DNA of 64,000 nucleotides from assembly GCF_000473995.1 (NCBI RefSeq), contig NC_022571.1, positions 2,635,416 through 2,699,415 on the forward strand, read 5' to 3'. This document shows, piece after piece, positions 31,897-34,537 of this stretch. The DNA is from Clostridium saccharobutylicum DSM 13864. GTDB taxonomy: Bacteria > Bacillota > Clostridia > Clostridiales > Clostridiaceae. A model generated the notes under the pieces. The model saw only the letters and a program-made list of their open reading frames with translations. It ran no database searches and had not been told where the DNA came from. The translations under genes were made by a program, and so were the position numbers. Each line of letters starts with the position of its first letter. Positions within the stretch are counted from its first letter, which is position 1.

Positions 31897-32484
31897 TTAA
31901 TTGCTTGTGCTATCATCACAAATGTTAATTACAAAGTTTCCTATCATATGCTTTCCCTTAGGTGTATATATAGATTCTGGATGAAATTGAAATCCAAAAA
32001 CGTTATATTCTTTATGCTTAATTGCCATAATATCATTATCCTCTACAGTTGCTCCTATTACCTCCAAGCAATTTGGTACTGAAGCATTTTCGACGATCAA
32101 TGAATGATATCTCATAACATCTAATTTTCTAGGAATTCCTTCAAAAATGTCTTTACCTTTAACTTGAATCTTTGATGTCTTACCATGGAATATTTCATTT
32201 GCTCTTACTACCTTTCCACCATAAGCTACTGCTATGCTTTGATGGCCAAGACAAATACCTAAGATAGGTATTTTATGTCCTAATTTCTTTATAACATCTA
32301 TAGATATTCCAGCATCTTCAGGAATTCCTGGACCAGGTGATATAACTATACCTTTAGGATTTAATTTTTCTAATTCTTCTACACTTATTTCATCATTTCT
32401 ATATACTCTTGTTTCTGCAAATTCACTTAAATATTGATATAAATTAAAAGTAAATGAATCATAATTATCAATTAAAACTATCAT
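31897..32484 (-). CDS. trpG: Anthranilate synthase component II (glutamine amidotransferase)
   Basis: 195 aa class I glutamine amidotransferase. Catalytic Cys in [12 protein letters not shown], His and Glu in [12 protein letters not shown], and [13 protein letters not shown] (oxyanion/GPG motif). Supplies ammonia to TrpE. Start overlaps the trpE stop by 4 bp (ATGA). A free-standing small subunit, not fused to trpD. The sequence does not separate trpG from an amphibolic pabA role, but position favours trpG. Confidence 0.96.
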
Positions 32485-33872
32485 CTTAGTACCTCCTTCA
32501 ATACCATTAGCTTATTTTGTATTTCATCAAATTCTTTTTCAGGTACTGAATCATATACAATTCCTGCACCAGCTTGCAATATTGCTGTTTTATCTTTTAA
32601 TAAAAGAGTTCTTATAGCAATAGCCATATCCATGTCCCCTCCATATGAAAAATATCCAACAGCACCAGAATAGATTCCTCTTTTACAATCTTCCAATTCT
32701 TCAATTATTTCCATTGCTCTTATTTTAGGAGCACCCGATACTGTTCCAGCAGGTAAACAAGCAGCTAATGCATCAAAACCGTCCTTGTCATCTTCAATAT
32801 CTCCAACAACTTTTGTAGTAATATGCATTACATGAGAGAATTTTTCAACTTTCATAAACTCATTAACATTTACAGTTCCAATTTTACTAACCTTACCAAT
32901 ATCATTTCTTCCAAGATCCACAAGCATAACATGTTCAGCAAGCTCTTTTTTATCTTCCATTAATTCTTTTTCTAAATCACTATCAATTTCTGGAGTTTCA
33001 CCTCTTTTTCTTGTACCAGCTATAGGATTTGTAATAACTTTACCATTTCTTACTGATACCAAACTTTCTGGTGATGAACCAATAATTTGATAGGTATCAT
33101 AGTCAATAAGGTACATATATGGTGATGGATTTTCTTCTCTAAGTCTTCTATAAATCTCCAAATAAGATTTATTAGTTTCACAAGTCATTCTTTGAGATAA
33201 TACTATTTGAAAAATATCTCCAGCTAATATATGCTCTCTTGCCTTCTTTACATTTTCTATAAAATTTTCTCTAGAAGTGTGAAATTTAAAGCTAACATCA
33301 CTTTTTTCTTCACTTTCTTCTGTTAAAGTTACCTTATACAATAAGGAATTAATATATTCTTTTTGAGAACTAATTACTTCATCATATTTTCTATCATCAT
33401 CTTTTAAAATATTATCTATAACATATACCTTATGAGTAAAATGATCATAACAAATATATCTATTGTAAAAATTGAATCTTATTATTGGAAAATTTAATTC
33501 ATCTGGATTTTTAAAATTTAATTTTTTTTCATATAATCCTATAGACTCATATCCCATGTATCCAATTGCACCACCTTTAAATGAAAAAGGATTGGTATTC
33601 TTATCAAATTCTATTCTAATTTCCTTTTTAACTTCATCAAGCTCTTCTTGGCCATTTCCATCAATTTCTTTATAAGGATTTTCTCCCATAAATGAATATC
33701 TGCCAAAATAATTTTCTTTGGTTCCACTTTCGAAGATAAATTTTCTCTTTCCTTTAAAGCCGTCAAATAGCCTTATAGGTGTGATTTCATCTCCTCTAAA
33801 TTCACTAATCAAAGAAAATACAGCTTTATCATTCTTTTTTTCTTGAAAATCTTCTCTTGAAATATTTATCAT
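32481..33872 (-). CDS. trpE: Anthranilate synthase component I
   Basis: 463 aa chorismate-utilising enzyme. N-terminal domain with FIFESGTKENYFGRYSFMG. Catalytic domain with HILAGDIFQIVLSQRM, YLIDYDTYQIIGSSPESLV, NPIAGTRKRGETPE, LVDLGRNDIGKVSK, CLPAGTVSGAPKIRAMEII and QAGAGIVYDSVPEKE. AAGGGGGAAAAATC sets ATG 33872 as the start. First gene of trpEGDCFBA, 90 bp downstream of the leader terminator, so its expression depends on T-box antitermination. Confidence 0.97.
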   Translation of the reverse strand: MINISREDFQEKKNDKAVFSLISEFRGDEITPIRLFDGFKGKRKFIFESGTKENYFGRYSFMGENPYKEIDGNGQEELDEVKKEIRIEFDKNTNPFSFKGGAIGYMGYESIGLYEKKLNFKNPDELNFPIIRFNFYNRYICYDHFTHKVYVIDNILKDDDRKYDEVISSQKEYINSLLYKVTLTEESEEKSDVSFKFHTSRENFIENVKKAREHILAGDIFQIVLSQRMTCETNKSYLEIYRRLREENPSPYMYLIDYDTYQIIGSSPESLVSVRNGKVITNPIAGTRKRGETPEIDSDLEKELMEDKKELAEHVMLVDLGRNDIGKVSKIGTVNVNEFMKVEKFSHVMHITTKVVGDIEDDKDGFDALAACLPAGTVSGAPKIRAMEIIEELEDCKRGIYSGAVGYFSYGGDMDMAIAIRTLLLKDKTAILQAGAGIVYDSVPEKEFDEIQNKLMVLKEVLR

Positions 33873-33962
33873 GATTTTTCCCCCTTTTGGTATACTTAAT
33901 TGCTTTTTATGTATACACCTTAAATTAAATTTTACATTAACCATTTTTTTATCTTTTATACA

Positions 33963-34025
33963 ATAAAAAAAGCCACTTCATTCCAATTAAATTGGGACGA
34001 AGTGACTCGTGGTGCCACCCAAATT
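33963..34025 (-). promoter_or_regulatory. Second trp antiterminator/terminator (T-box motif without its own Stem I)
   Basis: On the minus strand TGGGTGGCACCACG is followed by a terminator stem of about 18 bp (AGTCACTTCGTCCCAATT with AATTGGAATGAAGTGGCT) and TTTTTTTATTG. This 3' half matches that of the T-box at 26704-26985. The roughly 180 bases between it and the first terminator (34199) contain no TGG specifier loop, GAATGGGT or GTCAGCCGTTA. It may share the upstream Stem I or be a decayed tandem T-box. Confidence 0.75.
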
Positions 34026-34198
34026 TTAATACATAATAGGCATTTGAACTTATTATTATACTAATTCATAAATATAATTAATATTAATTTAGCCTTTGTC
34101 AAATAATAAATTATAATCATCTTTTAAATTTTATTTTGATTAAATTACTATATTGTTATCAACTAAATAATATTAAATTTAAATTAGTATAATAAAAA

Positions 34199-34490
34199 AG
34201 TACTTCATCCTTACCAGGACGAAATACCAAAATTTCGCTATACCACCTAATGTATATACTTTATCAGATACGGATAATTTAAAAATATTTATAATCTAAA
34301 TTAATTATCTTATATCCTGTCATTTTAACGGCTGACTCCCCGTACATTCCTACTTTATAAACTTCAAAATGTCACCTCAAAGACCCATTCAATAATACCT
34401 ACAGTACTCGAATCTCACCAAATCTCCGAACTCTCTTTACACTAAGCTGTATTATCTACTATTCTTATCACTGGCTTTATTTAAAAAATA
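34199..34490 (-). promoter_or_regulatory. Complete T-box riboswitch, tryptophan type, of the trp operon
   Basis: Minus-strand order: Stem I with GATAAGAATAGTAGATAAT, GAGATTCGAGTACTGTAGG and the specifier loop TTGAATGGGTCTTTG (TGG, Trp); GTACGGGGAGTCAGCCGTTA; T-box AGGTGGTATAGCG; terminator GTATTTCGTCC/GGATGAAGTAC followed by TTTTTTATT (34192-34228). Uncharged tRNA-Trp should stabilise the antiterminator and allow transcription of trpEGDCFBA. Confidence 0.92.
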
Positions 34491-34508: not shown

Positions 34509-34537
34509 ACTATAACATGTTTCACTAATTTTTACAA
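34509..34537 (-). promoter_or_regulatory. Promoter of the trp operon leader
   Basis: On the minus strand TTGTAA (34532-34537), a 17-base spacer and TATAGT (34509-34514) lie just upstream of the T-box leader start. Confidence 0.65.

Follow-up and report, generated by a model that had tools for sequence, protein, structure and literature searches.

A structural class of T-boxes with duplicated terminator-antiterminator elements was reportedly described by Vitreschak and colleagues in 2008.

Partially tandem T-boxes, in which a single Stem I is followed by two antiterminator/terminator units, are a recorded kind of this riboswitch, and a 2020 review calls their mode of action unknown. For trpE of Clostridium beijerinckii and of Desulfitobacterium hafniense, PMC4342826 credits Vitreschak et al. 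2008 with a tandem T-box, and full tandems on trp operons are likewise known (PMC12452182, PMC4342826). We compared these systems with the trp leader in a window of 64,000 nucleotides (the whole stretch of DNA analysed, to which all positions refer unless a relative is named) from Clostridium saccharobutylicum DSM 13864.

Structure of the trp leader

The trp leader of the window consists of one Stem I and two antiterminator/terminator platforms, T1 upstream and T2 downstream, and is a partially tandem T-box (Table 1). Two covariance models were used, one of the Trp Stem I region built from 11 trp leaders (R1) and one of the platform built from the 22 platforms of those leaders (R2). R1 gave a single match on the leader, over the Stem I and Stem II segment, and R2 matched twice, at 34253-34187 and 34025-33960 (E about 1e-11). 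The complete Trp T-box with its own antiterminator and terminator that the first-pass annotation had reported is confirmed by the scores of Stem I and T1 together with the TGG specifier, and so is the second T-box motif with a strong terminator, by the platform score and the terminator fold of T2.

Table 1. Features of the trp leader and the start of the trp operon
Feature	Position	Strand	Evidence
Candidate trp promoter (TTGTAA, 17 nt, TATAGT, TG ahead of the -10)	34509-34537	-	consensus scan alone, 9/12 matches
Stem I, Stem II and IIA/B pseudoknot (CGG..CCGTTA)	34318-34477	-	R1, 149.5 bits
Trp specifier TGG	34387-34385	-	context GAATGG invariant across the 11-leader alignment
Stem III and linker	34257-34317	-	placement between CCGTTA and T1
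5-nt arm UAUAC, complementary to the T1 T-box part GUAUA (34243-34239)	34252-34256	-	
Platform T1: TAGG/CCTG and GCGA/TCGT antiterminator, bulge UGGUAUA 34245-34239	34194-34249	-	R2, 63.4 bits
T1 terminator hairpin and U-run	34228-34199	-	terminator scan; fold -17.4 kcal/mol, z -4.25 against shuffles
Spacer between T1 and T2, 172 nt, AT-rich, without Stem I	34022-34193	-	predicted as one long hairpin
Platform T2: TGGG/CCCA and ACGA/TCGT antiterminator, bulge UGGCACC 34017-34011	33965-34021	-	R2, 66.2 bits
T2 terminator hairpin	34008-33971, U-run 33971-33965	-	fold -22.8 kcal/mol, z -3.81 against shuffles
trpE, first gene of trpEGDCFBA (33872-27152)	32481-33872	-	ORF list

The putative promoter matches the consensus at chance level, yet it lies directly 5' of Stem I and is likely that of the operon. 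The Stem III region folds weakly in the window (z -0.39 against shuffles) and its GGTAT..GTACC pairing is clear in relatives; a Stem III belonging to T1 is plausible in the window leader. T2 ends 93 nt upstream of the trpE start, which we place at 33872 rather than at the ATG at 33944 in the list of the ORF finder, because the TrpE proteins of relatives align from MINIS and the ATG at 33872 is preceded by a GGGGG ribosome site; the ATG at 33944 is probably not the start.

The general T-box model RF00230 matched the minus strand of the leader at 34480-34212 (72 bits, E 3.1e-15) and, weakly, at 34099-33990 (33 bits, E 3.5e-5), the latter with 95 Stem I model positions deleted. As both units score under the Rfam T-box cut-off of 93 bits, a standard Rfam scan is silent at 33960-34490, so that automatic annotation misses both platforms, and surveys that count tandem T-boxes through complete copies will undercount the layout of one Stem I with two platforms.

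Search for a second Stem I

A second Stem I was not found when R1 was run with all filters off over 33880-34240, where the best match reached 7 bits and overlapped T2, not the spacer. As positive controls, R1 was applied to the other 24 T-boxes of the genome (the copy downstream of trpA counted), most of them with amino-acid specificities other than Trp; it detected Stem I in every one, with scores of at least 27.6 bits, and recovered both Stem I elements of a genuine full tandem in the leader L223. The absence of a second Stem I is thus a tested result, as R1 detects the element in all 24 controls; among the 25 Rfam-level T-box matches in the genome, only T2 is without one. The covariance-model check envisaged in the first-pass annotation, run over the leader, found no full second Stem I, and its statement that the stretch between the platforms holds no Stem I landmark was borne out, the length of that stretch being corrected from about 180 to 172 nt.

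The spacer itself folds better than its shuffles (z -2.3 to -2.7; runs of -2.73 and -2.33), and similar values occur in some relatives with long spacers. The idea that long spacers form a conserved bridge and so bring T1 and T2 closer together was considered and rejected, the mean z being -0.83 over the 26 spacers of at least 60 nt, in which the spacer ends were not closer than in shuffles. A spacer promoter (TTGACA at 34102) that would yield T2-only transcripts was rejected as well; such motifs are at chance level (9 found against 7.0 expected), and the promoter was absent at that place in the relatives examined.

Conservation of the layout among trpE leaders

Leaders were gathered through TrpE, blind to leader content, across the order and the phylum, and searched with R1 and R2; two repeats were removed, and the T-box downstream of trpA and the two units of L223 were subtracted in the tallying. 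Of the 95 trpE leaders that have a Stem I of the Trp type, 78, spread over 24 genera, combine a single Stem I with two platforms; a further 14 carry one platform, in 2 none was found, and 1 has two Stem I elements and two platforms. The great majority of the 95 had no part in model building, into which 11 leaders went, and T1 is matched weakly in some leaders from outside the family, L204 and L205 among them. The sole full tandem in the sample is L223 of genome G360, both of whose bulges read UGGCACC. The gap between the two R2 matches has a median of 25.5 nt (range 5-163; 162 in the window), and the spacer measured from the U-run is 15-53 nt long in 51 of 77 leaders. Spacers of that length are too short to have housed a Stem I.

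Judged from the sampled leaders, the layout is shared across related bacteria and is not a decayed duplicate, and a spacer as long as that of the window characterises some lineages rather than being the remnant of a lost Stem I. The option that the second T-box had lost its Stem I finds no support for this lineage. Recent decay of a second Stem I is refuted by the conservation of the layout, a verdict that covers recent and not ancient loss.

Match of T2 to tRNA-Trp and its antiterminator

G73 is the discriminator in each of the genome's two tRNA-Trp genes, and the T-box base facing it in the window is U in T1 (a wobble) and C in T2. Across the two-platform leaders, 67 of the 78 T2 platforms have C at this position and the other 11 have U; the 77 readable T1 platforms likewise show C or U without exception, and both bases can pair with G73. 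The other T-boxes of the genome, by contrast, vary between U, A, G and C at the discriminator-facing position. The antiterminator helices of T2 are complete in 74/78 (A1), 75/78 (A2) and 71/78 (both) leaders, against a maximum of 69/78 for A2 after re-dealing of strands, counts which are inflated by kinship and part of which the terminator could explain, as it shares one strand with the antiterminator. Compensatory changes occur in each helix of the T2 antiterminator (ACAA/TTGT, ATGA/TCAT, TGAG/CTCA and AGAG/CTCT). Taken together, the alignments support the use of antiterminator 2 well, though short of proof.

Differences between the two platforms

The bulge of T1 reads UGG-C/U-AUA in 52 of 78 leaders and the canonical UGGNACC in 0/78, whereas UGGNACC is found in 55/78 T2 bulges and AUA in 17/78, chiefly in the window's own clade (Fisher 1e-23, relatedness ignored); all 14 single-platform trpE leaders have the ACC bulge. 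The T1 terminator is weaker, with a mean of -15.7 against -21.3 kcal/mol for T2, which is the stronger in 68/77 leaders, and the antiterminator is complete in 38/77 T1 against 71/78 T2 platforms. The systematic difference is possibly new; a description of it was not found in the papers examined.

In the window's genus, the GNAUA of T1 is complementary at 5/5 positions to the upstream 5-nt arm in 26/28 leaders, compared with 70% (at most 82% over 500 trials) for re-dealt arms, and the pairing is predicted in 24/28 folds with a small predicted stability of -1.6 to about -2 kcal/mol. In other genera the complementarity is weak (P about 0.03). In the folds of this genus the arm could mask the T1 T-box when tRNA is absent. 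As a device specific to the tandem the masking hairpin was rejected and is kept as a lead, since it also fits single T1-type platforms, is clear in the window's genus only and has little predicted stability; the arm thus belongs to the platform type.

Other Trp T-boxes

A second complete Trp T-box lies just 3' of trpA (26977-26700, minus strand), with a single R1 match of 120.1 bits and one T2-like platform whose bulge is UGGUAGA. Its platform has 85% identity with T2 and 65% with T1, and the Stem I elements of this T-box and of the trp leader share 85% identity; the T-box is probably a trp-leader copy that lacks T1. The window has no two-copy Trp feature other than the trp leader and this T-box. 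In three relatives (G104, G127 and G194) the corresponding position holds a Stem I followed by just one platform, which is T1-like, and no such T-box was found in the examined stretches of six others (G008, G077, G023, G134, G047 and G021). As single copies of both the T1-like and the T2-like kind occur, a Trp Stem I can be followed by either platform type on its own.

The 41-aa ORF behind the window's post-trpA T-box (26656-26531, minus strand) is an AroQ-type chorismate mutase that has lost 58 internal codons in frame when compared with an intact 99-aa gene (L249, 3437-3736), and the next ORF (26531-25848) had no Pfam match. Two relatives, L244 (2645-5463) and L246, have a glutaminase/chorismate-binding synthase fusion (about 720 aa, TrpG-TrpE/PabB type) under their post-trpA T-box, which in L244 additionally drives an intact chorismate mutase. 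Elsewhere in this genome, the trpS T-box (L024) has a single platform with the bulge UGGUAUA, and a further Trp T-box (L007) stands before a small membrane protein resembling a tryptophan transporter.

Proposed mechanism and alternatives

The first-pass annotation had offered three options for T2, namely a lost Stem I, a tRNA-Trp on the first Stem I that serves both platforms, or a constitutive terminator, and we infer that the second is the best supported. On the comparative evidence the leader probably works as one sensor with two gates, where T1 and then T2 would draw on a single tRNA-Trp held by the Stem I that they share. The nascent Stem I and Stem II would pick tRNA-Trp through its anticodon, and the NCCA end of an uncharged tRNA would pair with the T1 T-box and stabilise antiterminator 1, which would let the polymerase pass terminator 1. 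Once T2 is made, the tRNA anchored on Stem I would let go of T1, whose terminator would then form harmlessly behind the polymerase, and the NCCA end would pair with the better-matched T2 T-box, so that the polymerase passes terminator 2 into trpE. With charged tRNA both terminators would form. As the serial gates would multiply, leakage should be low and the response steeper. A point against the scheme is that, in reviewed structural work (PMC7583486), an antiterminator needs Stem III for appreciable tRNA binding; as T2 has none it should need the upstream Stem III, which it would borrow with the T1 hairpin and the 172-nt spacer looped out. The response of T2 to a tRNA held on the upstream Stem I, and the hand-over from T1 to T2, would be the inferred steps of this scheme. 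If one tRNA serves both platforms, the riboswitch reads the same ligand twice, which changes the modelling of its sensitivity and leakage.

As an extension of the one-sensor scheme, the platforms may have specialised, T1 for easy release through its non-canonical bulge, weaker helix and terminator and re-maskable T-box, and T2 for tight capture, so that the hand-over of one tRNA during transcription would amount to two-step proofreading of charging by a single riboswitch; this we hold as a tentative idea, with the balance against it.

The same platform differences bear on the alternative that T1 is a mostly unregulated or weakly regulated attenuator which lowers the overall level, T2 being the real switch of the upstream Stem I. 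The lack of the canonical bulge, the often incomplete antiterminator, the weaker terminator and, in the window's genus, a T-box that the upstream arm can mask all speak for it, and a T1 that is poorly responsive owing to its bulge could count against the one-sensor model. We nevertheless consider the attenuator unlikely, as T1 retains UGG and a C or U opposite G73 in every readable case, T1-type platforms stand alone behind the post-trpA Stem I in three relatives, and the bulge UGGUAUA recurs in the T-box before trpS, which has a single platform. That T2 is constitutive and removes a share of the transcripts that pass T1 would suit a strong terminator without Stem I or Stem III, but a plain terminator needs neither UGGN, nor a C or U opposite G73 (78/78), nor compensatory changes in a competing antiterminator; the conserved T-box and antiterminator 2 thus disfavour this option, which we regard as very unlikely. 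Still less probable is the direct binding of a second tRNA by T2, with Stem I not involved; its conserved and canonical T-box speaks for this, but four base pairs confer no amino-acid specificity, an antiterminator alone binds tRNA poorly (PMC7583486) and no other tRNA-reading element was found near T2. Least likely of all is a remnant of a full tandem pair with its second Stem I lost, for which the known full tandems and the trpE leader of L223, in one sampled genome of the phylum, could be cited, but against which stand the one-Stem-I layout in so many genera and a spacer without a trace of Stem I, these leaders being such that ancient loss and ancient partial duplication do not separate.

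The preferred reading of one tRNA for two platforms can be addressed in the trp leaders collected here, which form a compact test system with one sensor, two platforms, spacers of 15 to about 170 nt, naturally occurring T1-only and T2-only copies, and platforms that differ from each other in a consistent way.

Comparison with known T-box systems

The upstream unit of the window leader has every element of a single class I transcriptional T-box, from which the leader differs by the second platform downstream. With the full tandem T-boxes on trp operons of Bacillales and others it has in common two Trp-responsive terminators in series before trpE, the response being predicted for the window leader; in those tandems every unit comes with a Stem I, whereas the second unit of the window is without one. 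The closest likeness is to the partially tandem T-boxes, with which the leader shares one Stem I and the two antiterminator/terminator units that follow it. Nothing was found that excludes its membership, and the window leader is a member of the known partially tandem T-boxes and not an unrecorded arrangement.
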